Source: Candidatus Rokuibacteriota bacterium
GTDB lineage: Bacteria; Methylomirabilota; Methylomirabilia; Rokubacteriales; CSP1-6
DNA length: 52,653 nt
Reading direction: 5' to 3'
NCBI GenBank assembly: GCA_003221695.1
Contig: QHSX01000072.1
Span: 1 to 52,653, forward strand
Part shown: positions 603 through 15,700 of the stretch, one piece after another
How the letters are laid out: each line of letters opens with the position of its first letter
Numbering within the stretch: the first letter of the stretch is position 1
Translations under genes and position numbers: made by a program
Notes under the pieces: model-generated
Told to the model about the DNA's origin: nothing
Database searches by the model: none
The model's input: the letters and a program-made list of their open reading frames with translations, nothing else

Positions 603-1154
603 TTACGCAGCCTGCAAGAGGGTGCAATCGAGCTGGACGGCGATGCTGCGCCGCAGGAGGTTGACCGAGACCACCAGGAGCCCTTTCTTGGGGCTCACGC
701 GGACGACCATCCCCTCGACGTCGGCGAGCGGCCCACGCGTGATACGCACGCGCTGCCCTTCGCGGAGATACGGGTGGGGGAAGATCGGGAGGCCGGAGTG
801 AACGAGCCTTTTAATGTCCTCGATCTCCGTATCCGGGACGGCGTCGAGTCGGTCCCAGCGCTCTCCGAGGACGCGCACGAGCCCGCGCGCCTTGTAGACC
901 TCGAGGTAGCTCGCCTTGTCCATCACGTGGCGCAGGAAGAGGTATCCTCGGAACAGCGGGACGCGCGAGAGGCGCCGGACTCCGCCCCGTCGGGACCACG
1001 TCTCGACGGTGGGCAGGAACAAGTCAAAGCCCTTCGCGGCAAGCTGGTCAGAGACGAGCTGCTCGCAGTTGCTGTGGGTCCAGAGGACCCGCCAGCGCGG
1101 GGTCACGGCTTCCGCCACGATTTCTGACAAGGCTTCGCCCCCTTTGGTCTCCAT
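603..1154 (-). CDS. NusG-paralogue transcription antitermination factor (RfaH/UpxY/LoaP type)
   Basis: This 183-residue protein has the NusG N-terminal (NGN) fold: RWRVLWTHSNCEQLVSDQLAAKG near residues 21-43, then FLPTVETW and VPLFRGYLFLR. A C-terminal KOW segment follows (REGQRVRITRGPLADVEG, about residues 127-144). Housekeeping NusG is normally next to secE and ribosomal protein genes. This copy sits in a polysaccharide operon, as the specialised paralogues RfaH, UpxY and LoaP do. Such proteins bind elongating RNA polymerase and let it read through long polysaccharide operons. A hairpin lies between the preceding kinase gene and this one. The specific target is unknown. The start ATG is chosen as the first in frame; no other start fits the NGN domain better. 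Confidence 0.85.
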   Translation of the reverse strand: METKGGEALSEIVAEAVTPRWRVLWTHSNCEQLVSDQLAAKGFDLFLPTVETWSRRGGVRRLSRVPLFRGYLFLRHVMDKASYLEVYKARGLVRVLGERWDRLDAVPDTEIEDIKRLVHSGLPIFPHPYLREGQRVRITRGPLADVEGMVVRVSPKKGLLVVSVNLLRRSIAVQLDCTLLQAA

Positions 1155-1227
1155 CCCGTTCTCGGGTACGAGACCAACGACTTCTCACCGATGCCGCGCA
1201 GCCCGAGCTTCCGGCTGCACGCGTCCG

Positions 1228-1256
1228 CCCCCGCCGTCACCTCGGGTGACCGGCGT
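1228..1256 (-). other. Intra-operon hairpin upstream of the NusG-paralogue gene
   Basis: GTCACC (1236-1241) and GGTGAC (1245-1250) form a perfect 6-bp stem with a 3-base loop. The stem extends outward through GCC/GGC pairing if one base is bulged. It lies 24 bp downstream of the kinase stop codon, in the 119-bp gap before the NusG-like gene. No T-run follows on the transcribed strand, so a classical intrinsic terminator is unlikely. An attenuator or antitermination-related RNA structure is possible but unproven. Confidence 0.35.
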
Positions 1257-1273
1257 CACTCGTCTGAGGCGGT

Positions 1274-2137
1274 CTATTTCCTGTTGCGCTTCGAGAGTCG
1301 CGTCGCGTAGGAGCCGTACGAATTCCTCGAGAGGTGGCGGTCGTCTCCGTTGAAGACCAGGCCAACGACCTTGGTCCGCTCCGCGAGGTTCAACGCTTCC
1401 CCCAGGAACTTGCGGCCCGTCCTGTGAGCCGTCACCACGATGAGGAATCCGTCCACCCATTTCTCGATGACCCGACAGTCGGGGACCAACACGAGGGGCG
1501 GGGTATCGAGGATGACGTAGTCGTACCGCTTACGAGCCTCTGCGAGGAGCTCCCCGACCCGAGGCGACTTCAGCACTTCGTAGGTGGCAGACGGACGGCG
1601 GCCTGCTGGCAGCACGGACAGGTTCAGGTGCGGACACGCGTGCGCCGCGGTTTCCAGAGTCAGACTCGCGTCCAGGATCGCGTCCGCGAGGCCCGGGCCC
1701 ACCCGAGCGTCCCACCCGAGGCGCGCGGCCACGGCGGCCCCCCGCAGATCGGCGTCGATGAGAAGAACGCGTGCGTCGGGCGCCTGGGCCAGCGCGCCTG
1801 CGAGGTTGATGGCGGTGGTGGTCTTGCCATCAGCGACACCGGGGCTCGAGACCGCGACGACCGACAGCGCGGTCGACTTGCCGCGCTGTTCGATCAGATG
1901 GCGCAGCGCCCGATACTGTTCGGCTTCAAAGGAGGTTGGCGCGAGCAGGCTCACCAGATGTTCGTCGAGCCCGTTGGCGACGCCCCTCGGAAGCTCGGGC
2001 GCTGACCGGAGGGCGGGGTCGAGGGCGGTCTCAGGGACCGCTGGACCCCGCGCGTTCGTTGGCTCGGAAGGTGCGGCCTGAAAGCGAACGGCCCGCTCCT
2101 GCTCGGCGCGCTCGAGCGCTTCGAAGAACTTACTCAT
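1274..2137 (-). CDS. Bacterial tyrosine autokinase of exopolysaccharide synthesis (CpsD/CapB-like, XrtA-associated type)
   Basis: The 287-residue P-loop protein matches BY-kinases that phosphorylate tyrosines and work with a Wzz-type membrane activator to control polysaccharide chain length. Visible motifs are Walker A (GVADGKTTTAINLA, about residues 105-118), Walker A' (VLLIDADLRG) and Walker B (YVILDTPPLVLV). The N-terminus MSKFFEALERAEQER is typical of the PEP-CTERM/XrtA-associated subgroup. The C-terminal tyrosine cluster is short, with only two Tyr near NSYGSYATRL. The gene overlaps the preceding ATPase gene by 4 bp (ATGA), so translation is probably coupled. Its membrane partner is likely the Wzz-like protein at 3125-4741. 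Confidence 0.88.
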   Translation of the reverse strand: MSKFFEALERAEQERAVRFQAAPSEPTNARGPAVPETALDPALRSAPELPRGVANGLDEHLVSLLAPTSFEAEQYRALRHLIEQRGKSTALSVVAVSSPGVADGKTTTAINLAGALAQAPDARVLLIDADLRGAAVAARLGWDARVGPGLADAILDASLTLETAAHACPHLNLSVLPAGRRPSATYEVLKSPRVGELLAEARKRYDYVILDTPPLVLVPDCRVIEKWVDGFLIVVTAHRTGRKFLGEALNLAERTKVVGLVFNGDDRHLSRNSYGSYATRLSKRNRK

Positions 2138-3114
2138 GGGTCCAGGAGGTAACGAACCGATTGCACAAGGCCCAGCACGGCGGTGTCAGGCGCCAGGGCG
2201 AGGCCCACGACGGTACTGGCGAGGGCCACGGCCAGGGTTCCGACCGCCCACCGGGCGAGGCGCCGAGGCTTCAAGCCGCGGAGGCGCCAGACCTTGCGCG
2301 GTGCTTGCGTGCCCTCCTCCAGATACTCGATCGCCTGGTTGACGATGGGCCGATCGATCTGGCGTTTCTGATCGGCATAGCCGAAGAGGAGGCAGTGATC
2401 GCAGACGATGTTGATGAGCCGTGGAATCCCGCCCGAATATGTCGCGATCCGGTCCACCGCGGGATCGCTAAACAAGCCCAGGTCACGCGCGCCCGCAATG
2501 CGCAGTCGGGTCCGGATGTACTCGCGGATCTCGTGCAGCGTCAGCGGCGGGATCTGGCAGCGCAACCCGATCCGTTGCGTAAGCTGCGCGAGTTCGGGAA
2601 GCTGGAGCTTGGCCTTGAGCTCCGGCTGCCCCACCAGCAGGATCTGCAGGAGCTTGGTCGTCGGGGTTTCGAAGTTCGAGAGCAGTCGGATCTGTTCCAG
2701 CGTCGCGGGGGCCAGGTTCTGCGCTTCGTCCAGGATGAGGAGCGTGTTCTCGCCCGTCCGCTCGCGCTCGATGAGGAAGTGATTCAGCGCGATGAGCCGC
2801 TGCGCCCGTGACTCCCCGCCCTTGGCGATCCCCAGGTCCTCGAGGACGTACTCGAGAATGCCGTCAAAGGGCAGGGTGGAATGGACGACGAAGGAGATCG
2901 CCGTCTGTCTGTCGAGCCGCTGACGAAGCGCGTGCAGCAGGGTGGTCTTTCCCGTGCCCACGTGGCCCGTCAGGACGATGAATCCCTTCCGCTCCCGGAC
3001 CCCGTAGAGGAGCTGAGCGAGCGCCTCACGATGCGCCGGGCTCAGGTAGAGGAATCTGGGATCCGGGGTCGCGTTGAAGGGCTTCTCTGCGAGTCCGTAG
3101 AACGTCAGGTACAT
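2134..3114 (-). CDS. ExeA/GspA-like AAA+ ATPase of the exopolysaccharide (XrtA) cluster
   Basis: The protein begins MYLTFYGLAEKPFNATPDPRFLYLS, the typical opening of ExeA-like ATPases associated with PEP-CTERM/exosortase polysaccharide clusters. Walker A is GHVGTGKTTLL (about residues 49-59) and Walker B is TLLILDEAQNL. SGGIPRLINIVCDHCLLFGY near residue 225 is a typical AAA_22/ExeA sensor region. A hydrophobic stretch near the C-terminus (WAVGTLAVALASTVVGLALA) predicts one membrane anchor. I chose the ATG at 3114, which removes an 11-bp overlap with the upstream gene and matches family starts; an earlier in-frame ATG at 3135 also exists. It probably energises or scaffolds export or assembly. 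The exact biochemical role of this subgroup is not established. Confidence 0.85.
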   Translation of the reverse strand: MYLTFYGLAEKPFNATPDPRFLYLSPAHREALAQLLYGVRERKGFIVLTGHVGTGKTTLLHALRQRLDRQTAISFVVHSTLPFDGILEYVLEDLGIAKGGESRAQRLIALNHFLIERERTGENTLLILDEAQNLAPATLEQIRLLSNFETPTTKLLQILLVGQPELKAKLQLPELAQLTQRIGLRCQIPPLTLHEIREYIRTRLRIAGARDLGLFSDPAVDRIATYSGGIPRLINIVCDHCLLFGYADQKRQIDRPIVNQAIEYLEEGTQAPRKVWRLRGLKPRRLARWAVGTLAVALASTVVGLALAPDTAVLGLVQSVRYLLDP

Positions 3115-3124
3115 GCGGCGGTTC

Positions 3125-4741
3125 CTAGGAGCCACCCCGCCGCGCCAGAACCGAGACGAGGTGCTCGTTTCCGCTGGCGACGAAGTAGGCGGTACCGACG
3201 ATCATGACGAGGCCAATGAGGGCGGCGCTGGCGGCGAGTCGCGCGCGCCACTGGCTTCGGCGGCGGTCGGTCCGGGTGATGATCCGCGGAATACTGACCA
3301 GCACCGGCACGGTACTGAACGCCCGGAGATCGTCGACCGTGTGGAAGGACGTGTCGACGCGCTCGGCCACGACCACGGCGCCGACGGCCAGGCCGAGCGA
3401 TCCCATCAGAGCCATGAGGAGCAACCGGAACCGGTTGGGCGCGGCCGGCTCAGAGTTCGGGATCGCCGGGTCGAGCACGCGAAACTGTTCGCCCTTCTGG
3501 CGCTGCTCCATGCTCTCGGCGAGCTGGGCCTCCTCGTAGCGCTTCAACAGCGAGCTGTAGAGCTCGCGGGTGCTTTCGTAGTCGCGGGAGAGCTCCCTGA
3601 ACTCCTGTTCCCGTCGCGGCACGTTCTCCACCCGGCCCTGATAGGCGGCGATCCCGTCTCGAAGCCGGCGTTCCTCGCCCTTGAGAACCTTGATGTCCGT
3701 CTCCGCCTCGCTCAGGGCCTCTTTCAGGCGGAGCACATACGGCGTGAGGGGGGTGACCGGCGGAGTCGCCGGGTTCTCTTCCGGTTTGAGCTCGTGGGCC
3801 TTGGCATCAGCGACCTCGCGCTCGAGCGCGGTCACCTCCGCGGCCAGCAGGACGACGTCCGGGTACTTCGCGCTGAACTGAGTGCGGAGCCGTGTCAGCT
3901 CTTGCTTCAACCGGGCCAAGCGGGCCTCGGAGGTTTCGCGCGGGGCTCCTGGCCCGCCCGGCGCCGCTGCCGCGGCGACCAGGAGGGAATCGGCTTCGGC
4001 GAGCTGACTCGACAACGCCTGCCGGCGCTCCGAGGCTCGCGTCTGACTGTCGGCGTTCAGGCGAAGCTGCGCGTGGAGCCGTTCGAGGGTGGCGAGGTTG
4101 GCCTCCATCTGCTGGGGCAGCTCGCCCAGGTGGCGCCGCTTGAACTCGCTCACCCGTTGCTCATGAATGTCGAGCCGCTTCTTCGTTTCCTCGAGCTGGA
4201 CCTTGAGAAACTCCGCGGTGCCGGTCGCCTGACGCCCACGCGCCTTCAAGTCCTCCTCGATGTAGAAGGACGCGAGGGTATTGGTGACGAGCGAGACCGT
4301 GGCCGGCTCATTGCCCTGATAACTGATCGTGAAGGCCACCGTGGCCTCGCGCTGACCTCTGGCCTCGACCCCCTTGAGCTCGAGCTTGATGTCCCCGCGC
4401 ATGCGCTTGATGACTTCCTCGGATGGGGCCTGCGTCCACAGATCGGGGTAGAGGGCGAAGCGGGTGATCAGGGCTTCCAGTCGCGAGCGGCTCAGGATCT
4501 CCTGGCTGATCGTCTGGAGCCGGGTCTCGAGGGCACTGGTCACGGTGGACCGCACGAAGGTCTCGGGGATCTGCTGGCGGTCCACCAGGACCGTGGCCGT
4601 GGACCGATACAGGTTCGGGAGAAAGGTGATGAGACTGGCGGCGGCCGCCATGGGGGCGGCGAACGCCAGGATCGCCAGCCACTTGCGCCGGCTCCAGACG
4701 GCCAGCACCCCGTCCAGGTCTTTCCGTGTCTCGTCCGCCAT
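3125..4741 (-). CDS. Wzz/GumC-family polysaccharide chain-length determinant protein
   Basis: This 538-residue inner-membrane polysaccharide co-polymerase has an N-terminal membrane helix (WLAILAFAAPMAAAASLITF, about residues 17-36). A long periplasmic coiled-coil region follows, rich in Leu, Glu, Arg and Ala (about 170-400). The classic Wzz tail is FRVLDPAIPNSEPAAPNRF before a second membrane helix (about 435-455). A third hydrophobic stretch near the end (LIGLVMIVGTAYFVAS) is consistent with the XrtA-associated subgroup. There is no kinase domain; the tyrosine kinase is a separate downstream gene, as in Gram-negative XrtA clusters. It lies 9 bp downstream of the export gene and 10 bp upstream of the ExeA-like ATPase, so it is in the same operon. 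Confidence 0.9.
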   Translation of the reverse strand: MADETRKDLDGVLAVWSRRKWLAILAFAAPMAAAASLITFLPNLYRSTATVLVDRQQIPETFVRSTVTSALETRLQTISQEILSRSRLEALITRFALYPDLWTQAPSEEVIKRMRGDIKLELKGVEARGQREATVAFTISYQGNEPATVSLVTNTLASFYIEEDLKARGRQATGTAEFLKVQLEETKKRLDIHEQRVSEFKRRHLGELPQQMEANLATLERLHAQLRLNADSQTRASERRQALSSQLAEADSLLVAAAAAPGGPGAPRETSEARLARLKQELTRLRTQFSAKYPDVVLLAAEVTALEREVADAKAHELKPEENPATPPVTPLTPYVLRLKEALSEAETDIKVLKGEERRLRDGIAAYQGRVENVPRREQEFRELSRDYESTRELYSSLLKRYEEAQLAESMEQRQKGEQFRVLDPAIPNSEPAAPNRFRLLLMALMGSLGLAVGAVVVAERVDTSFHTVDDLRAFSTVPVLVSIPRIITRTDRRRSQWRARLAASAALIGLVMIVGTAYFVASGNEHLVSVLARRGGS

Positions 4742-4750
4742 CGGTGAGCC

Positions 4751-5370
4751 TTACGGCACCAGGACGATGTCGCCGTTCCGGAGGTAGAAGTTCTCCTGCT
4801 CTCCGGCCAGCTTGTTGTAGTTGAAGGGAATCCGCTTCATCGTCGTTCTCTCGGGACGAAGAATGACGATCCTCGAGCGCGTGGCGAACTGGGTGAACCC
4901 CCCGGCCAGGGCGAGGACGTCCAGCACGGTCGTCCAGCTCTTGAGCTCGAAGCGCCCCGGGTGGACGACTTCGCCCATGACCGACACTTTGAAGCTCCGG
5001 ACGTCGGACACGATCACGGAGACCTCCGGGCTCGGGATGTACTCCGTGAGCTTCTGTACGAGGTCATCGCGGAGCTCGAGCGCGGTGCGCCCCGCGGCCT
5101 GCACGTCGTTCACGAGGGGGAGCGAGATCTTGCCATCCGGCCTCACGGGCACCGTCCGGGTCAGCGCGTCGTTCTTCCAGACGGAGACCTGCAGCATGTC
5201 CTCGGGCCCGATCCGGTAGACGTCGGGCGCGACGACGCCATTGCCGTCGCGCGCCGACGCATCGACCGCCGGCGCCTGGGCGTCGGCCGGGTCGGCAGTC
5301 ATCCAGGCGGAGACGAGGACCGCGCCGGCAAGGAGCGGGTAGACCAGCGAGCGCTTCGTCACGGGGTGCC

Positions 5371-5374
<4 letters not shown>
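4751..5374 (-). CDS. Periplasmic/outer-membrane polysaccharide export protein (Wza/GumB-like)
   Basis: The 207-residue protein has an N-terminal signal peptide (LLAGAVLVSAWMTADPADAQA). The Poly_export domain begins YRIGPEDMLQVSVW and includes RPDGKISLPLVNDVQAAG. A SLBB domain follows (VSVMGEVVHPGRFELKSWTTVLDVLALAGG). No lipobox cysteine is visible, unlike Wza, so the anchoring differs or the protein is periplasmic. It would form the export channel or its periplasmic part together with the Wzz-like protein. The start is GTG, overlapping the regulator stop codon by 4 bp (GTGA), so regulator and structural genes are translationally coupled. Confidence 0.9.
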
Positions 5375-6756
<1,382 letters not shown>

Positions 6757-7248: not shown

Positions 7249-8634
7249 GTGAGCTTCACCAAGGGGCACGTGGGTAGGTCGGTGCTCGCTTGGCCCTGGC
7301 CAGTCGGCACGGGCGGGGGCGCGATCGTTGGGATCGCCCTCTGTTTGATGACGGCCCACGCGTGGGGCCAAGAAGGTCCGCGTGCCGGCGGGAGAGAGCA
7401 GCCACCGGCGACTGAGCCCGCTCCATTTCCACCAAGCCCCGGCCCGCCGATTGGGGCGTATCCACTCGAGCTCTTGGGGCTCCTGGCGCCTCCTGCCCAA
7501 CGCGGACCGGTCACGCTAACGCCCTCGATCTCCGTGTCCGAGGAGTACAACGACAACCTCTTTTTCGACAACCGGAATCGCCAATGGGATCTCATCACGG
7601 GCCTGAGCCCGGCCCTGACGCTCTTCGTCACCCGCTCTTCGTATCAGCTGAGCGGCGGGTATTCGTTCACCGCCGAAATGTACGATCGGAACACCCGTCT
7701 CAACAATGCCCTCGAGCATCAGAATTTTGTCGCCAGCGGCCTCTACCGGGCGATGCCAGGATTGACGCTGACGGCCTCTGACGCATACACGTTGGATCGC
7801 AGCACAAATCGCCTCGCGACGCAGGGCTTTGCCACCGGCCGGCAGGAATCGTGGAGTAATACTTTCGCACCTGGCTTGACCTGGCAGATGACGCCCCTGA
7901 CCTCTCTGAATCTCGGCGCGACCTACAGCATTCTACGTTTCAAAGGGGCAGGGGCCGAAGGTGTAGGTACAGGTGCAGGTACAGGTACAGGTAGCGGGAT
8001 GGACTCAGATACCTACGGGTTTTCGACCACGCTCGGTCATGTGCTCACGCCCCGCCTCACCGGCCTCATCGGCTATGGCTTCACGTACCTGGATGTTCGC
8101 GGGGAGGAAAGCTCGCGGACTCATACCCCCACGCTGGGTGGCAGCTACCGTTTCACGCCGTCGCTCACCGGAACCGTCAGTGGTGGCCCGGCCATTACCG
8201 AGCTCGGGCGCCAGACGATCATGTCTCCCGCCGGCACCGCGAGTCTCGTCCAGCTTTTACGAACCGGCTCGGCCAGCGTCCAATACACTCGGGCGGTGAG
8301 TGCCGCAGGTGGATTAGGTGGGACGACCGACTCCCAGTCCGCTTCAGGCACGCTCACGCTTTCGACCTGGCAGCGCGGCTTGCTCATCGTGGTTAATCCT
8401 GTGTACAGCATCGCGGAGTCCGTGAGCAGCCGGCAGACCGACCGCATCGACGTCAAGTCGATCACACTGACCCTCGGCGTGACCTATCAACTCGCTCGTT
8501 ATGTGAGCCTCTTTGGAGGGTACACGTTGTTTCAGCAGCGCACCGGCACCACGTCGTCGTCGGGCCAGGCCGACGCGGATCAAAACCGAGTCAGGTTCGG
8601 TCTGCAGTTCGGGTATCCGATCAACTTCGACTGA
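7249..8634 (+). CDS. Outer-membrane beta-barrel protein (PEP-CTERM/XrtA-cluster associated type)
   Basis: The 461-residue protein starts with GTG and has a long signal peptide ending near AHAWGQEGPRAG. A proline-rich linker follows, then repeated amphipathic strands with alternating aromatic and polar residues (VSEEYNDNLFFDNRN, QLSGGYSFTAEMYDRNT, RYVSLFGGYTLFQQRTG). It ends VRFGLQFGYPINFD, a typical terminal barrel strand with final aromatic residue. The phrase 'SVSEEYNDNLFFD' is common in putative outer-membrane proteins of exosortase EPS clusters, so it is likely the outer-membrane component working with the divergent EPS operon. A Gly-Thr repeat lies in one loop (7960-7995). The precise role, porin or export, is unknown. 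Confidence 0.75.
   Translation: MSFTKGHVGRSVLAWPWPVGTGGGAIVGIALCLMTAHAWGQEGPRAGGREQPPATEPAPFPPSPGPPIGAYPLELLGLLAPPAQRGPVTLTPSISVSEEYNDNLFFDNRNRQWDLITGLSPALTLFVTRSSYQLSGGYSFTAEMYDRNTRLNNALEHQNFVASGLYRAMPGLTLTASDAYTLDRSTNRLATQGFATGRQESWSNTFAPGLTWQMTPLTSLNLGATYSILRFKGAGAEGVGTGAGTGTGSGMDSDTYGFSTTLGHVLTPRLTGLIGYGFTYLDVRGEESSRTHTPTLGGSYRFTPSLTGTVSGGPAITELGRQTIMSPAGTASLVQLLRTGSASVQYTRAVSAAGGLGGTTDSQSASGTLTLSTWQRGLLIVVNPVYSIAESVSSRQTDRIDVKSITLTLGVTYQLARYVSLFGGYTLFQQRTGTTSSSGQADADQNRVRFGLQFGYPINFD
7960..7995 (+). repeat. In-frame hexanucleotide repeat in the barrel gene
   Basis: Six tandem hexamers of the form GGTNNN are present (GGTGTA, GGTACA, GGTGCA, GGTACA, GGTACA, GGTAGC). They encode alternating Gly and Val/Thr/Ala/Ser. 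Gain or loss of a unit changes two residues without a frameshift. The position between barrel strands suggests a surface or periplasmic loop of variable length. Confidence 0.7.
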
Positions 8635-8940
8635 CCCCCTCGAGCCGTGTCCGGGGGTTTGCGCCGTTGCGTTTACCCACATTTCCACCGTTGTCCACAA
8701 TCGAAAATTTGGACGGTCCGACGCGCTCTCGCGACGACGCCGTTGAGAATCGCCCCGGGGTGCCTGCGTTGGATGGACGGCCCCTTCAGATTGCCTGGTG
8801 AAAGGGCGCGCTACGCGTTCGGTGCATCGGCAACGCCAGACTTGATAGGGGGAAATGGCGACTGGGGCGGGAAAAAAACGAATTGACGAGGAATTAAAGA
8901 TCGCCTACGCTCCACCCCGATCTCGCAGGAGGATACGAAG
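8635..8940 (+). other. Intergenic region upstream of the degenerate AAA+ gene
   Basis: This 306-bp gap contains no recognisable gene. Its 3' end carries the promoter and ribosome binding site described at 8883-8932. The remainder includes an AT-richer patch near 8695-8720 (AATCGAAAATTTGGAC). I see no convincing RNA gene or terminator. Confidence 0.5.
8883..8932 (+). promoter_or_regulatory. Sigma-70-like promoter and ribosome binding site
   Basis: TTGACG (8883-8888) and TACGCT (8906-8911) are separated by exactly 17 bp, a plausible -35/-10 pair. A perfect Shine-Dalgarno AGGAGG (8927-8932) lies 8 bp before the ATG at 8941. It suggests the degenerate AAA+ gene is expressed on its own housekeeping-type promoter, unlike the sigma-54-driven EPS operon. 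Confidence 0.55.
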
Positions 8941-9681
8941 ATGTCCGCCGGAGACGCGACGATCGAGTGCGCACCGACCGTCCTAAAGACGCCCCGGGTC
9001 CTTGACCTCGTGGCGGCAGGACAGCGTGCGGACCATCGAGTGCCTCTCCTGATCAGAGGCGAGCGCGGCGCCGGTAAGGACATCGTGGCACGGCTCATCC
9101 ACGCTGCCTCAGCACGCCAGCCCCATTCCTTCGTGAAGATGAATTGCGCGGTTCAACCCGCTGACCGGAGCGAGGCCGACTTATTTGGCCTGGAGAGAGG
9201 GACCTCCCCTCTGGCGAGCCGGCGGCGCCTCGGGAGCTTCGAGTTCGCGAACCACGGCACGATCTACCTGGACGAGATCGGGGCTCTCCCGAGCGCCGTG
9301 GCCCCCAAGCTTCTTCACGTGCTGCGGACGGGGGAGGTCTCGCGCACCGGCGGCCGCGAGATCATCCGGATCGACGTCCGCGTCATCGCCTCCACGGGAC
9401 AGAGCGCGGACATTGGGCGCGACGACTATCTCTGGAAGGAATTGCAGGCTCTCAAGATGGTCGAGATTTGTGTCCCTCCGCTCAGGCAGCGAACGGAAGA
9501 GATTCCCGTCTTCGCGTCATTTTTCCTGGAGCAATTCAACCGTCGGTACCGACGGGACGTCCAGCTCTGCGCTGACGAGCTTGCCGCGCTCATGGCCCGC
9601 TCATGGCCGGGGAATATTCGCGAACTCGAGGACGCGGTTCACCGGCTCGTCGTCGGTGGGGCGCCGTCTCCTTCCCATTAG
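8941..9681 (+). CDS. Degenerate sigma-54 activator AAA+ domain protein (no receiver, no DNA-binding domain)
   Basis: The 246-residue protein is an isolated AAA+ domain of the sigma-54 activator family. Walker A (GERGAGKD) and Walker B (GTIYLDEIGAL) are retained, so nucleotide binding is likely. The GAFTGA loop that contacts sigma-54 is replaced by GTSPLA, the sensor-1 Asn is lost (RVIASTGQS), and both Arg fingers are missing (YLWKELQAL where active members have FRADLYYRL). There is no N-terminal receiver and no C-terminal helix-turn-helix; the stop follows RELEDAVHRLVVGG. It probably cannot activate transcription. It could bind the PrsR-like protein and poison or tune its hexamer, or be a decaying gene. 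The strong ribosome binding site and uninterrupted frame favour function. Confidence 0.75.
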   Translation: MSAGDATIECAPTVLKTPRVLDLVAAGQRADHRVPLLIRGERGAGKDIVARLIHAASARQPHSFVKMNCAVQPADRSEADLFGLERGTSPLASRRRLGSFEFANHGTIYLDEIGALPSAVAPKLLHVLRTGEVSRTGGREIIRIDVRVIASTGQSADIGRDDYLWKELQALKMVEICVPPLRQRTEEIPVFASFFLEQFNRRYRRDVQLCADELAALMARSWPGNIRELEDAVHRLVVGGAPSPSH

Positions 9682-9859
9682 CCGGTTCGAGCGCGACGCC
9701 TCGACCCCCTGGCGGTGCTTCCCGAATTCCGCACCATCCGTTTAAGGGACTCACCTTGATGTTCGCGCAGGCGTCGAGGCAGAATATGGCGAGCCGGGGC
9801 GCTGCCAGCCGCGGAGGAGGTCGACGATGATCGCTCGCGCTCGCTCGCAGGTGACCTAG

Positions 9860-10354
9860 ATGGCCTCCTGGGACTTCAGGCCCCACGGTACCATCGTCGA
9901 CGGGGAAACTTTTGCCTGTGTCACTGAGCTCCAGATGCGTCAGGCCGCTCGCTTGCAGTACGCGGTCTCCATGCTGACAATTCACCAGAGCGGCAACGGG
10001 TATGTCGCCGATCCTGGCGACGGGGCTCAAGAGCTTGCGGAGGTGGTGAGTCCTCTGATTCGAGACACCGATCTCATCGAGGCCGTGCCGGCCGCCGGGA
10101 CGGTTCGAGTCCTGCTCGTTGGCGGAGAGCTGGAGGACCTCGACATCATCATTCGACGCATTATCACGGAAGTCAGCCACCACCGGTTCGACGAGCGGCA
10201 CGCGCTTGTCGTGCGCATTGGTGGGAGCTGTTTTCCCGCCACGGCAGGGAACTCCCGAGACCTCAAGCGTCAGGCCGACACCCTGGCGGAAGAGGCCCGT
10301 CGAGAGCAGGGCGCCTATTCGACGTATCGGCTTCGCACGCGCTCGGAGACCTGA
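9860..10354 (+). CDS. Small protein with degenerate GGDEF-like fold
   Basis: This 164-residue cytoplasmic protein follows the secondary-structure order of a GGDEF domain. A first strand (AVSMLTIHQSGNG) precedes a helix (AQELAEVVSPLIRDTDLIEAV), then comes a strand region where the GGDEF signature should be but reads PAAGTVRVLLVGG. A further helix (LDIIIRRIITEVSHH) and a final strand-helix (LVVRIGGSCFPATAGNSRDLKRQADTLAEEAR) resemble the SIGVA...ADxALYxAK tail. Metal-binding and catalytic residues are absent, so diguanylate cyclase activity is not expected; nucleotide sensing or a scaffold role is possible. It lies 178 bp after the degenerate AAA+ gene on the same strand and ends 8 bp from the convergent pseudokinase gene. 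The fold assignment is from pattern only. Confidence 0.5.
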   Translation: MASWDFRPHGTIVDGETFACVTELQMRQAARLQYAVSMLTIHQSGNGYVADPGDGAQELAEVVSPLIRDTDLIEAVPAAGTVRVLLVGGELEDLDIIIRRIITEVSHHRFDERHALVVRIGGSCFPATAGNSRDLKRQADTLAEEARREQGAYSTYRLRTRSET

Positions 10355-10362
10355 TCGAGCGT

Positions 10363-11856
10363 CTACTTGCCGCGCTCGGCGGAGTGCTTCAGCAGCCAGT
10401 CGATGACGGCGCTGGGATCGTAAGCCTCCACCTCGCTCGACGAAGGTGAGCCCTCACGAACGGCGCCTGCGGGCGCCTGCTGCACTCGTTGAGGCTGTCG
10501 GCGCTCTGCGCTGGGTGGGCCTGACGCCGGCGGGGCCGCGGACGGCGGCGTCGCTTTGGCGGCGGGCTGCGGGGCTGACGCGGGTGGGGGCGCGGACGGC
10601 CGCGCGGAGCGCGTAGCCGGCGGCACGACCGCTGACGTGGCCGGGGGGGCGACCGGGGCCGCGGTCCGTGTCTCTGTGACGGGGGCACCCGCGGGGGTGC
10701 TCGATACCGGCGGGGCGCCCACCGTCGCTTGCTGGGTTGCCGGCGCCGGCCGCGCTGGCGGCAGCGCCGTTTGCGGTGGCATCGTCGGCTGCGCGAGCGA
10801 CGCCGGGGGCTCTCGATCCGCCGACGGCGCCGTCGGGGATTGCGCCGACGGGCGTGGCGCCAACAGGCGCGACCCCATCAGGCTCCAGACAACGATCGCT
10901 GCGATCGACGCCGTGACGATTATGCCACCCACGACCGCGGCCTTCCGCTTCCACCGCCTCACCGGTCCGTGCGCCTCCGCCCACAGGCGGTTCAGGACGT
11001 CCTGCATGAGAGGCCGCAGCTCCGGCTGCTTGTAGAGCGCGAGCGCGACCGCGGACTCGACCGAGGCGGGAATGGCGCGCCGTCGCCGGCGCATCGGGGT
11101 CGGCGTCTCCGTCAGCTGCTTCGAGAGGACGGCATCGCGCGTGGGCGCCTGGAACGGCGGCACCCCGCAGAGCATCTCGTAGAGGATGACGCCAAACGCG
11201 TAGATGTCCGTCTTCTCGGTCGCCGGGGCCCGGCGGATCTGCTCGGGCGAGAGGTACTCCGCCGGCGGCTCAGCGGCGAGGAGGCCCTCGTTCGCCTGGG
11301 CGTCACGCAGGCCGGCCAGCTCCAGGTCCATCAGCTTGACGCGCCCGTCCTCCAGGACCATCACGTTCGAGGGCCGGAGGGCGCCGTGGACGAGGCCCAT
11401 GTTATGCAGCGTCTCCACGGATCCACCGAGGTCGAGCGCCACGCGCAGCGCCTCGGGGATGTCGAGCGGTGTGCCCCCCGACAGCATCTCGCTCAGACGG
11501 CGGCCCGCGACGAGCTCCATCGCCACGAACGGCCGGCCGTTCTCGACCTCACCGAACTCGAGCACGCGGACCAGTCCCGGATGACTCGTCGATGCCGCGA
11601 CAATCGAGCGACCCATGCGCTGGATCGTCTGCGCGGCGTGAGGGCCGGCGAGCGCGCGGGGCAGAAACCGGATCGCGACCGGGTGGCCGGTCGCTTCGTC
11701 CTCGGCGGCACAGACGATCCCGAAGGCGCCGGCCCCCAGCTCGGTGACGATCCGGTAGCGGCCCTTGACGGAGAACCCGATGGGAGCGCGGTCGCCGGCC
11801 TCGACGGACGGCACGGCCGTGGGCCCCGTCGGGCTCTCGTTGACGTCTTTACTCAC
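10363..11856 (-). CDS. Membrane-anchored Ser/Thr protein kinase homologue, probably a pseudokinase
   Basis: This 497-residue protein has a kinase-like domain (about 25-290), one membrane helix (AAVVGGIIVTASIAAIVVWSL, about 313-333) and a long Pro/Ala/Thr-rich external region. The protein ends SEVEAYDPSAVIDWLLKHSAERGK. The Gly-rich loop is intact (ELGAGAFGIV) and APE-like and F-helix features remain (YLSPEQI, DIYAFGVILYEML). The beta-3 Lys is Arg (HPVAIRFLP), the HRD motif is HGA with the catalytic Asp lost (LVHGALRPSN), and DFG reads DLE. Catalysis is therefore unlikely; ATP binding and signalling by conformation are possible. Its start overlaps the TAXI gene stop by 8 bp, so a periplasmic binding protein and this transmembrane pseudokinase are probably co-translated. 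Confidence 0.85.
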   Translation of the reverse strand: MSKDVNESPTGPTAVPSVEAGDRAPIGFSVKGRYRIVTELGAGAFGIVCAAEDEATGHPVAIRFLPRALAGPHAAQTIQRMGRSIVAASTSHPGLVRVLEFGEVENGRPFVAMELVAGRRLSEMLSGGTPLDIPEALRVALDLGGSVETLHNMGLVHGALRPSNVMVLEDGRVKLMDLELAGLRDAQANEGLLAAEPPAEYLSPEQIRRAPATEKTDIYAFGVILYEMLCGVPPFQAPTRDAVLSKQLTETPTPMRRRRRAIPASVESAVALALYKQPELRPLMQDVLNRLWAEAHGPVRRWKRKAAVVGGIIVTASIAAIVVWSLMGSRLLAPRPSAQSPTAPSADREPPASLAQPTMPPQTALPPARPAPATQQATVGAPPVSSTPAGAPVTETRTAAPVAPPATSAVVPPATRSARPSAPPPASAPQPAAKATPPSAAPPASGPPSAERRQPQRVQQAPAGAVREGSPSSSEVEAYDPSAVIDWLLKHSAERGK

Positions 11857-12841
11857 GGAGCATCTCGCGGATCGCGTCCATGACCGGATTGATCTCGGAG
11901 GACTTCTGCGGGCTGGCGGCCTTGGCGGTCGGCTTGTTCAGGTATTTCTTCACGCAGTCGTACTGCTCCCAGCCCTTCAGCGGGAACTCGAGGTTGACCG
12001 TCTTCCACTTCGGGTGGCCGTTCTTCGTCAGCCACTCGAAGTTCGTCGACAGAACCTGGGCGAGCCGTCCCACGTTGTCGCAATCGCCCCGCCGATAGTC
12101 GAACGACACGAGGACCGCCTTGACCGCGACGGTCTGGACGGGCTCGGGCTGCCAGGCGTACGTGTTGGCGGGGATCGTGACGGACGGGTAGAACTCGGCG
12201 ATGTCCTTGTTGGTGATCGGGACGAGCACGAGATTGTCCGCCGCGGCGACGCCTTCGGCGAGGAGCCGCACCGGATACCCGGCGACGAAGAACATCGCGT
12301 CGATCCGCCCTGCCCGGAGCTCCGCCAGCGCCCCATCGGTGTCGATCAGCACCATCTCACGCGGCGCGACCTCCGACACCTTGAAGAGCAACCGCACGGT
12401 GAGGTAGGTCCCGCTGCCCTCCCGCCCGATCGCCACCCGCTTCCCGGCGAGATCGTCGAAGGAGGCGATGCCCTTCCGCGCCAGCAGATGGACTTCCTCG
12501 TTGTAGAGCGGGAACACCATCTTGATCTTCTTCGCGATCCGCTGGAGGGTCTGATCGGTCTGTACTTTGGCGACGAAGGCGAGCACATCGGACTGCACGA
12601 TGCCGACCTGAACACCGGGCCGCTGGTAGACGGCGTAGATGTTCTCCACGGATCCTTTGGAGGGGTACACGCTCAGGTTGATGCCGTTCGACTTGCCGAG
12701 CGCCTGGAGATTGAGGCCGAACTGATAATAGGTGCCTTTCTCGCTTCCCGTCATCACGCCCATGTCCGCCGCGAGGGCGAGGGCGACGGGGCCGACCGTG
12801 AGCGACAGGGCCACCACCGAGATGAGTAGAGATCGCAGCAT
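11849..12841 (-). CDS. TAXI-family periplasmic solute-binding protein
   Basis: The protein has a signal peptide (LLISVVALSLTVGPVALALA) and the TAXI opening MGVMTGSEKGTYYQFGLNLQALG. VGIVQSDVLAF and DLAGKRVAIGREGSGTYLTVRLL are characteristic of the substrate-binding component of TRAP-associated extracytoplasmic immunogenic proteins. Substrates in the family include glutamate and other carboxylates. I chose the ATG at 12841 because AGGAG lies 8 bp upstream; an earlier GTG at 12850 is too close to that site. No TRAP membrane subunits (DctQM fusion) are nearby. The gene instead overlaps the membrane pseudokinase, which suggests a sensing role rather than transport. Confidence 0.88.
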   Translation of the reverse strand: MLRSLLISVVALSLTVGPVALALAADMGVMTGSEKGTYYQFGLNLQALGKSNGINLSVYPSKGSVENIYAVYQRPGVQVGIVQSDVLAFVAKVQTDQTLQRIAKKIKMVFPLYNEEVHLLARKGIASFDDLAGKRVAIGREGSGTYLTVRLLFKVSEVAPREMVLIDTDGALAELRAGRIDAMFFVAGYPVRLLAEGVAAADNLVLVPITNKDIAEFYPSVTIPANTYAWQPEPVQTVAVKAVLVSFDYRRGDCDNVGRLAQVLSTNFEWLTKNGHPKWKTVNLEFPLKGWEQYDCVKKYLNKPTAKAASPQKSSEINPVMDAIREMLRE

Positions 12842-12908
12842 AGCAATCACTCCTGGGTCGAGAAGTTCTCTACAAAGTCATCTAGAAATGAGAGCATTCT
12901 CGCTTATG

Positions 12909-12957: not shown

Positions 12958-14043
12958 CTACGGCGTCTCGGCTTCGGTCAGCGGCACACAGGCCTCCGGC
13001 GCCAGCGCGAGCGTCACCGTCTCGCCGGAGCGAAACACGGCGGGCGGGGGCGCGGTGACGCGCAGGGCCACGTCACTTCCGTTCACGCGGACCTGATAGT
13101 CCACGGCATCCCCGAGATAGCTCGCGCGCTGGACCACGCCGGCGAGGACATTGGGGTCGGGCGACGGGGGCTGGCCTCGTGCCACGAGCCGGATCTCGTG
13201 AGGACGGATCGAGACGACCACCGGGGCGCCGGGCTTGAGCCCGGTGACCGCGACGCGAAGCCGCAAGGCGCCGCGGGTGACGACGCCCGGCTCGGCCGCG
13301 ATGGCATCGACGAGGTTGGTCCTGCCGATGAACTCGGCGACGAACCGGGTCCGTGGATGTTGAAAGAGATCCTCCGCCGTCCCGACCTGGACGACGCGGC
13401 CTCGATGGAGCACGGCCACACGGTCGGAGATGACCATCGCCTCCGCCTGGTCGTGGGTCACGTAGAGGGTCGTGATCGCGAAAGTCTCGTGAAGCCGGCG
13501 GATCTCGAAGCGCATTTCTTCTCGCAGGTTTGCGTCGAGGTTGCTCAGAGGCTCGTCGAGGAGCAGGATCTCCGGCTCGACGACCAGGGCCCGCGCGACC
13601 GCGACCCGCTGCTGCTGGCCGCCTGAGAGCTCTCCCGGATAGCGCGAGCCGTAGCCATCGAGCTGGACGACCTTCAGCATCTCCTTGACGCGCGCCTCGC
13701 GCGCGGCCTTCGGCACGCCCGGCTTGAGGCGCAGGCCGTACGCGATGTTCTGTGCCACGGTCATGTGGGGCCAGAGCGCGTAGCTCTGGAAGATCATCGC
13801 CATCCGCCGCCGCTCGGGAGGGATCACGCGGGTCGGCGACGAGAGGCAGCGATCGCCGACCCAGATCTCGCCAGCCTCTGGCTGGAGGAACCCCGCGAGG
13901 AGGCGAAGGGTCGTCGTCTTGCCGCAGCCTGAGGGCCCGAGGAGCGAGACGAGCTCGCCGGGCTCCACCCGGAGGTCGAGCCCTTCGAGCGCGGCGACGT
14001 CGCCGTACCGCTTCGTCAGCCCCTTGATCGTCACGCCCGGCAT
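12958..14043 (-). CDS. ABC importer ATP-binding protein (FbpC/PotA type)
   Basis: The 361-residue ATPase has Walker A (GPSGCGKTTTLRLLAG), Q-loop (FQSYALWPHMTV), signature [15 protein letters not shown], Walker B ILLLDEPLSNLD and H-loop LYVTHDQAEAM. A C-terminal TOBE-type regulatory domain follows (about 240-361, with RPHEIRLVARG). It belongs to the MalK/PotA/FbpC branch, which energises uptake of iron, spermidine, 2-aminoethylphosphonate or similar. It is the last gene of the set binding protein - permease - ATPase, 10 bp after the permease. Substrate cannot be read from the ATPase; the MmgE/PrpD gene at the head of the operon hints at an organic acid. Confidence 0.92.
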   Translation of the reverse strand: MPGVTIKGLTKRYGDVAALEGLDLRVEPGELVSLLGPSGCGKTTTLRLLAGFLQPEAGEIWVGDRCLSSPTRVIPPERRRMAMIFQSYALWPHMTVAQNIAYGLRLKPGVPKAAREARVKEMLKVVQLDGYGSRYPGELSGGQQQRVAVARALVVEPEILLLDEPLSNLDANLREEMRFEIRRLHETFAITTLYVTHDQAEAMVISDRVAVLHRGRVVQVGTAEDLFQHPRTRFVAEFIGRTNLVDAIAAEPGVVTRGALRLRVAVTGLKPGAPVVVSIRPHEIRLVARGQPPSPDPNVLAGVVQRASYLGDAVDYQVRVNGSDVALRVTAPPPAVFRSGETVTLALAPEACVPLTEAETP

Positions 14044-14053
14044 CGGAGGTGGC

Positions 14054-15700
14054 TCAGTCCTTCGCGCCCATGACGTCGCGGCCGAGCAGCGTCTGCATCA
14101 CCCCGACGGCGGCGAAGGTCATGCCGAGCATGAAGAGGCCCAGGACCGCGATGGCGCCGAACTCGCCTTCCTCCTTCAGGTCGAAGATCACGACCGAGAT
14201 CACCTTCGTGTTCGGCGTGAAGAGGATGATCGACGCGGACAGCTCGCGGATCACGCCGATGAAGACGAAACACCAGGTGGCGATGATGCCGCTCCGGGCG
14301 AGCGGCGCCGTGATCTCGCCGAGCACGCGCAGGCGCCCCGCGCCGAGGATGCGACCCGCGTCCTCGAGCTCGGGGTGCACGCCTCTGAAGGTCGCGTCGG
14401 ACTGCGAGTAGCCCACGGGCATCTCCTTCGTCAGGTAGGCGACGAAGAGGATCCAGAGGCTCCCGTAGAGGACGAGCGGCGGGCGGGTGTAGGCGAGGAA
14501 GAGTGCGACGGCCAGGACCACGCCCGGAATGACCACGGGCGCCAGCGCGAGGAAGGTCAGGAGCTGATGGCCGGGGACGAGCTTGCGGTTGACGACGTAG
14601 GCCACGAGCGCCGCGAGCCCCGCGCCCACGCACGCCGTCATGATCCCGAGCTCGAGCGTGTTGACGATCGCGGACCGGGTGGCGCTGTGGCCGAACGTCA
14701 GGGCGAAGTTCCCGAGCGTGACGTTCTCCACCGTGAGCGGCTGGGCCCACGCACGCGCGAAGGCCGCCTTCGCGAGGATCCCGTAGGGCAGGAAGATGGA
14801 GCACGCCATCACGCCGAGACAACCGGCGAGCGCCGGCCGCCGCCAGGGCCCGAGCGGGATCTGTCGCCGCTGCCCGCTCTTGCCGCCGATCGCGGCGTAG
14901 CCCCGCCGCCCGAGGAGCTGCTTCTGCACCAAGAGGAGCAGCGCCGTCGCGAGGAACAGCGGGACGGAGAACGCCGCCGCCATCTCGACCTTGGGCGGGT
15001 ACTGGAACAGCGCCCAGATCTGGGTCGTGATCGTGTGGAAGCCTGCGGGCAGCGCGAGGATCGCCGGCGAGCCGAAGAGCGCCAGCGCCTGGAGGACGGC
15101 GAGGATGAAGCCGCTCAGGATCGCGGGCAGCACCATCGGGAGCGTCACCGTCAGGGCGACGCGGACGCGGCTCGCGCCCAGGATCGACGCGGCTTCCTCC
15201 AGGTCCGAAGCGATCAGCTCGAGGGTGTTCGCGATCATGATGAACACGTACGGGAAGGTGTAGATCGAGACGACGAAGATCAGCCCCGGCATCGTGAAGA
15301 CGTTGAGCAGGGGGTCCGCGGCCCCGGTCACGGACCGGTAGAGCTTGTTGAGGAGCCCGGCGTTCGGGCCGGCCAGCATGACCCAGGCGAAGGCGCCGAG
15401 GAACGGCGGCGTCACGAAGGACGCCAGGATGAGCGCGCGGACGAGCCGCTTGCCCGGCAGATCGGTCCGCGCGGTCAGCCAGGCCATCGGCGCGCCGATG
15501 GCGAGTGACGCGAGCCCGACCCAGAACGCGAGGACCACGGTGTTCCAGAGCGCCTTCTGGAGATGCGGGTCCGTGAACACCGCACGGTAGTGGGCGAGCG
15601 TCGCCCCGGTCTCGCTCGACACGCTCATGTAGCCGAGCCAGCCCAGCGGAAGCGCCATCAAGACGACGAGGGCGAGGGCGGCGGTGAGCCAGACCGTCAT
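14054..15700 (-). CDS. ABC importer permease with two fused membrane halves (FbpB type)
   Basis: The 548-residue inner-membrane protein has about twelve membrane segments in two homologous halves. Each half carries an EAA loop that docks the ATPase: EEAASILGASRVRVALTVTLPM in the first and EDAGRILGAGRLRVLGEITAPL in the second. This two-in-one layout is typical of FbpB-type ferric or phosphonate importers. It starts 4 bp after the binding-protein stop codon, so it is co-translated. Neighbours upstream and downstream complete the transporter. Confidence 0.92.
   Translation of the reverse strand: MTVWLTAALALVVLMALPLGWLGYMSVSSETGATLAHYRAVFTDPHLQKALWNTVVLAFWVGLASLAIGAPMAWLTARTDLPGKRLVRALILASFVTPPFLGAFAWVMLAGPNAGLLNKLYRSVTGAADPLLNVFTMPGLIFVVSIYTFPYVFIMIANTLELIASDLEEAASILGASRVRVALTVTLPMVLPAILSGFILAVLQALALFGSPAILALPAGFHTITTQIWALFQYPPKVEMAAAFSVPLFLATALLLLVQKQLLGRRGYAAIGGKSGQRRQIPLGPWRRPALAGCLGVMACSIFLPYGILAKAAFARAWAQPLTVENVTLGNFALTFGHSATRSAIVNTLELGIMTACVGAGLAALVAYVVNRKLVPGHQLLTFLALAPVVIPGVVLAVALFLAYTRPPLVLYGSLWILFVAYLTKEMPVGYSQSDATFRGVHPELEDAGRILGAGRLRVLGEITAPLARSGIIATWCFVFIGVIRELSASIILFTPNTKVISVVIFDLKEEGEFGAIAVLGLFMLGMTFAAVGVMQTLLGRDVMGAKD

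Follow-up and report, generated by a model that had tools for sequence, protein, structure and literature searches.

EPS is controlled by VpsR, and in PspF/PspA and similar activator/anti-activator pairs a receiver-less sigma-54 AAA+ protein is placed under the control of a partner protein. Several AAA+ regulators that lack the GAFTGA motif, the NtrC proteins of Caulobacter and Rhodobacter and a regulator of V. cholerae, act with sigma-70 (PMC10274813). In Myxococcus xanthus, the NtrC-like regulator of EPS genes EpsI/Nla24 binds c-di-GMP (PMC4877007). PelD influences the production of EPS at a step after translation (PMC7112168). In the PEP-CTERM set PrsK/PrsR/PrsT, the accessible part of the description reports sigma-54 control beside EPS genes (PMC1569441). 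Among kinase folds, the bacterial pseudokinase families listed in the accessible text of a 2025 review include ActPs1-3, GLW, CP1, DYD and DLHK, and the terms substrate-binding, solute, periplasmic and TAXI do not occur in that text (PMC12599244). Among the titles and abstracts listed, nothing dealt directly with EPS regulation in Rokubacteria.

The locus described here lies on a contig of 52,653 nucleotides (hereafter the window) belonging to the 4.6 Mb genome of an uncultured soil bacterium of the Candidatus Rokubacteria. An earlier note on this DNA had named six elements, i.e. an AAA+ protein, a GGDEF-like protein, a pseudokinase, an outer-membrane barrel, a TAXI protein and an EPS operon, and all six are present where it had placed them. 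Comparison with related genomes strongly supports a different grouping from the single module that it had proposed: two separately conserved pseudoenzyme pairs abut in the window, and only the AAA+/GGDEF-like pair is tied to EPS.

The EPS operon (603-5374, minus strand) is of the XrtA/PEP-CTERM type (NCBIfam TIGR03018, TIGR03015, TIGR03007 and TIGR03027) and encodes a NusG-like protein, a tyrosine autokinase, an XrtA-associated ATPase, a chain-length determinant and an export protein. It is headed, from position 6756 downwards, by a gene for a PrsR-like sigma-54 activator (5371-6756, minus strand; Pfam 3.9e-70) with a receiver, an AAA+ domain carrying GAFTGA and a Fis HTH; the orthologue likewise heads the operon in relatives, and the window protein is presumed to be the activator of the EPS operon. 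A -24/-12 site, TGGTACGGCACTTGCG, is located 20 nt upstream of this gene (6792-6777, minus strand), and such sites occur 20-65 nt upstream of PrsR in 8/8 orthologous loci, the window included. At the cut-off used, the background is 0.24 sites per kb per strand. Matches to the sigma-54 pattern across the whole window are not enriched above chance, so positional conservation alone was used as promoter evidence. The sigma-54 control of the EPS operon claimed earlier is thereby upheld. The genome encodes one RpoN and has 9 GGDEF and 10 PilZ matches; no EAL domain was matched in it. A second PrsR-like activator of the same genome (L008, G000:C64:5681-6172) falls very near that of the window in the tree, which suggests a second PrsR-type locus. 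On the other side of the promoter lies the gene for an outer-membrane beta-barrel of the TIGR03016 type (7249-8634, plus strand; BBP2_2, and NCBIfam 1.3e-12, under the curated cut-off). Pairwise NG86 dN/dS is 0.23-0.30 for the barrel gene and 0.06-0.21 for PrsR. The barrel gene also contains an AGGTAC hexanucleotide tandem repeat (7959-7993). The locus shares with PrsK/PrsR/PrsT a sigma-54 control adjoining EPS genes, but neither a GGDEF-like nor a short AAA+ protein figures in the accessible part of that description (PMC1569441).

The short AAA+ protein (8941-9681, plus strand) has 246 residues and a sigma-54 activator fold (Pfam Sigma54_activat, 1.8e-36) with an intact Walker A (GERGAGKD, 9058-9081) and an intact Walker B (GTIYLDE, 9256-9276). 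The family alignment places GTSPLA (9199-9216) where GAFTGA is expected. The chain, which has no receiver, stops after the AAA+ lid and gave no match in a search for HTH_8. Its family comprises 10 members, found in 8 of the 95 genomes of the class and in three genera of one family, none of which has an internal stop. In all 10, the receiver and the HTH are absent, GAFTGA is altered with an invariant proline (Pro90), the sensor-I Asn is lost and the arginine-finger segment FREDLYYRLN is changed with a deletion of two residues; Walker A is kept in 10/10 and Walker B deviates in four. These members form one group in the tree with 100/100 support, the parent EBP group being left unplaced since the tree is rooted by midpoint only. 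Their dN/dS is 0.21-0.47 by pairwise NG86, a rough measure in high-GC genomes. In the window copy the GAFTGA, sensor-I, arginine-finger and HTH elements are gone, but the label of dead ATPase was softened as too strong, both of its Walker motifs being intact. Having lost GAFTGA and the HTH, the protein should not activate sigma-54 alone. It resembles VpsR and the Caulobacter and Rhodobacter NtrC in that its sigma-54-type AAA+ domain lacks the loop that contacts sigma-54, but those regulators keep their receiver and DNA-binding domains and the short protein has neither.

Downstream, on the same strand, a stand-alone degenerate GGDEF-fold protein is encoded (9860-10354). Its sequence alone matches nothing in Pfam or NCBIfam. 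Searched with the family profile, diguanylate cyclases of solved structure are recovered (6d9m at 1.4e-11), the AlphaFold model has a pLDDT of 90.7 and a pTM of 0.86, and the 50 Foldseek matches shown are all GGDEF-domain proteins (best E 1e-8, TM 0.77). Judged from profile and model, the predicted fold is that of a true GGDEF domain. The GG(D/E)EF motif of diguanylate cyclases is absent from 21/21 members, PAAGT (10088-10102) standing in its place in the window. The I-site of PelD-type receptors, an RxxD followed by a downstream Arg, is found as R68-D-T-D71 (10061-10072; R in 20/21, D in 21/21) and R100 (10157-10159; 21/21), the latter aligned to the third I-site arginine. The former catalytic loop varies freely across the family while the I-site triad is conserved. 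The three residues are counterparts of I-site positions that were probed by mutation in B. cereus PelD, and the R68-R100 spacing of 32 is equal to that of R363 and R395 there (PMC7112168). RxxD is present in 20/21 family members against 3/7 in a class-wide sample of intact GGDEFs (Fisher p 0.008, one spurious pattern match being left out of the sample) and 1/5 of those examined in the genome of the window (Fisher p 0.002), two tests in which the family members are not independent. Retention of RxxD may be partly structural, as it is also found in many active GGDEF domains. The resemblance to PelD of Pseudomonas and Bacillus cereus extends to a degenerate GGDEF, an intact I-site triad and an adjacent EPS locus. 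PelD, however, also has a GAF domain, whereas the window protein, for which c-di-GMP binding is predicted, is a lone domain paired with a sigma-54-type AAA+ protein.

This pairing is conserved. A sigma-54 AAA+ gene lies at most 2.5 kb from the GGDEF-like gene in 21/28 family loci, on the same strand in 20, where roughly 3% per locus would be expected by chance and several of the remaining loci are on short contigs. In the window subgroup, which consists of the window gene and the three GGDEF-like genes nearest to it, the short AAA+ gene adjoins in each of the 4 loci. Members of the larger subgroup are instead found beside full EBPs, and three of these loci have a -24/-12 site of their own. A distant GGDEF-like copy (L080, G035:C246) has an in-frame TGA and no AAA+ neighbour and is apparently decayed. 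The link to EPS claimed earlier holds for the AAA+ gene, which adjoins a TIGR03016 barrel in 5/10 loci, three of them also with an EPS operon and one with a PrsT-like gene; the other 5/10 members are not visibly beside EPS genes, and the pseudokinase/TAXI pair is not tied to them. In the window, no sigma-54 site that would serve the pair was found before it, one weak site occurs within the AAA+ gene, 251 nt ahead of the GGDEF-like start, and the search for sigma-70 promoters and terminators gave nothing above chance.

In the reading that we prefer, the GGDEF-like protein of this first pair (8941-10354) would act as a stand-alone receptor reading c-di-GMP through its retained inhibitory site, with the short AAA+ protein as its output partner. 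The latter, predicted to be unable to activate sigma-54 by the known route after losing GAFTGA and DNA binding, would probably join or cap the assembly that a true sigma-54 activator forms, this activator being either PrsR or a paired EBP. As its nucleotide-binding motifs are kept, the simplest output would be to enter that assembly as an inhibitory subunit, and the protein would probably be an anti-activator gated by c-di-GMP, through which EPS transcription is tuned. An EPS-linked receptor/anti-activator pair of this kind, next to an unrelated pseudokinase receptor, is proposed tentatively, at a little short of an even chance. Such a pair would recall PspF/PspA in joining a receiver-less sigma-54 AAA+ protein to a partner protein, but the partner fold is unrelated and the AAA+ protein is itself without activator output. 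It would share with EpsI/Nla24 the tie between c-di-GMP and NtrC-like regulation of EPS genes; there, however, the activator itself binds c-di-GMP, whereas a separate GGDEF-fold protein is the proposed receptor here.

Alternatively, the GGDEF-like protein could bind no nucleotide and work purely as a protein-protein adaptor, providing receiver-less AAA+ proteins with a regulatory domain in trans. Such a role would fit the pairing of these genes with receiver-less EBPs, and in the larger subgroup the true input would then be the convergent single-domain CheY-like receiver whose gene separates the full EBP from the GGDEF-like gene in seven loci (recognized by Pfam for one), and which is absent from the window locus. 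It would also fit the four genomes that carry the short AAA+ gene without a matching GGDEF-like gene, where the AAA+ protein must be used otherwise or with a different partner. That all three I-site residues are conserved, when the former catalytic loop is free to vary, argues against the adaptor, which we consider somewhat unlikely. Receivers of this type are found at L055 6196-6687, L056 3232-3609, L057 5632-6009, L059 6295-6702 and L065 7946-8323.

A second alternative concerns the target of the AAA+ protein, which could be sigma-70 promoters or non-transcriptional partners, e.g. EPS export proteins, rather than sigma-54 activators. Loss of the L1 loop (GAFTGA) could point to sigma-70 as the partner, on the pattern of Caulobacter NtrC, despite the lack of a DNA-binding domain. 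In favour of this alternative, GAFTGA-less AAA+ regulators work with sigma-70 (PMC10274813) and the effect of PelD on EPS production is exerted after translation (PMC7112168). The known regulators of this type nevertheless bind DNA, which the short protein has no domain for, and true sigma-54 activators accompany the related pairs. This alternative appears improbable beside the anti-activator reading.

The second pair (10363-12850) is encoded on the minus strand. The transmembrane Ser/Thr pseudokinase (10363-11856; Pfam, family alignment and tail comparison) has a Pro-rich tail ending in AVIDWLL. A Ser/Thr pseudokinase has lost at least one of the beta3 Lys, the HRD Asp and the DFG Asp; here VAIK has become VAIR (Lys to Arg), HRDLKPEN has become HGALRPSN (11365-11388; the catalytic Asp replaced by Ala, the Asn kept) and DFG has become DLE with its Asp kept. 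All 10 aligned family members have lost the beta3 Lys as well as the HRD Asp, and their DFG is changed to D-(L/V)-E. With this protein, the degeneracy of all three folds is borne out. Kinase-domain dN/dS against the window copy is 0.28-0.45 (pairwise NG86), and the relatives with public names that were found with the pseudokinase alignment are Candidatus Rokubacteria MAGs. An AVIDWLL-like tail end is conserved in the window, L086, L091, L092, L093 and L101, even without an adjacent TAXI gene. Every member whose sequence is long enough to show it has a transmembrane segment after the kinase domain, and in sister pseudokinases this segment is followed by a fused ABC_sub_bind (Pfam 5.8e-33 and 1.2e-25) or SPOR domain (1.9e-13 and 6.6e-18). 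The TAXI periplasmic binding protein (11849-12850) matches TIGR02122 at 8e-38, with 130.1 bits for a cut-off of 84.35, and the stop of its gene overlaps the pseudokinase start in three genomes (window, G002 and G006). That a binding protein is fused in the sisters and operonic here argues for a receptor role of the pair: the TAXI protein would sense a periplasmic ligand and signal via the single-pass pseudokinase through protein-protein contacts. The kinase fold is shared with PknB-type transmembrane kinases and the pseudokinases EssB and MviN, and the single-pass topology with an extracytoplasmic part with EssB and the PknB type; in the window family, by contrast, that part consists of a solute-binding protein, whether fused or encoded by its own gene. 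The titles and abstracts listed gave nothing direct on TAXI proteins with signalling.

The gene neighbourhoods of relatives separate the two pairs. The pseudokinase and TAXI genes lie elsewhere in G002 and G006, the two pairs being on different contigs in G002; the AAA+ protein occurs without a window-type pseudokinase in G003 and G020, and the pseudokinase without the AAA+ protein in G006, G010 and G030. In G001, the flanking ABC gene directly adjoins the AAA+ gene with no pseudokinase or TAXI gene between them. The pseudokinase adjoins the AAA+ gene in the window only, an adjacency best read as lineage-specific since the pairs are separate in relatives. The earlier note had also taken the three proteins for maintained regulators rather than a graveyard of genes, and that part is borne out: each of the three genes has a dN/dS well under 1, different species have the degenerate motifs in common and frames are open in relatives, with a sole stop in one distant GGDEF-like copy. 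It is thus very improbable that all three are decaying remnants that chance to be open, a graveyard to which the reduced size, the lost motifs and that stop would point, given a dN/dS of 0.2-0.5, motif changes common to several genera and a conserved pairing. A single EPS-serving module of three inactive proteins, favoured by their adjacency in the window, is rejected as scarcely credible, as the two pairs are found apart and independently.

In the cited cases, c-di-GMP control of EPS via NtrC-like regulators is by direct binding to the activator. If the anti-activator reading is true, a separate dead-GGDEF receptor paired with a loop-less AAA+ protein that does not bind DNA would represent another kind of wiring, with a natural dominant-negative subunit. 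Bacterial pseudokinases are a largely uncharacterised field, and a family in which solute-binding proteins are either fused or operonic offers a testable candidate for a ligand-to-pseudokinase receptor. The bolder claim, that the locus holds both a novel form of sigma-54 control, in which a stand-alone dead GGDEF domain sensing c-di-GMP at its I-site governs a poison AAA+ subunit that has neither sigma-54 loop nor DNA binding and enters activator hexamers, and transmembrane receptors of a new class, with a pseudokinase relaying the signal of a solute-binding protein, is judged unlikely. Beyond the second pair, the genes of an ABC transporter set (12958-15700) recur by the AAA+/EBP/EPS locus in several genera (L048, L052, L055 and L065).
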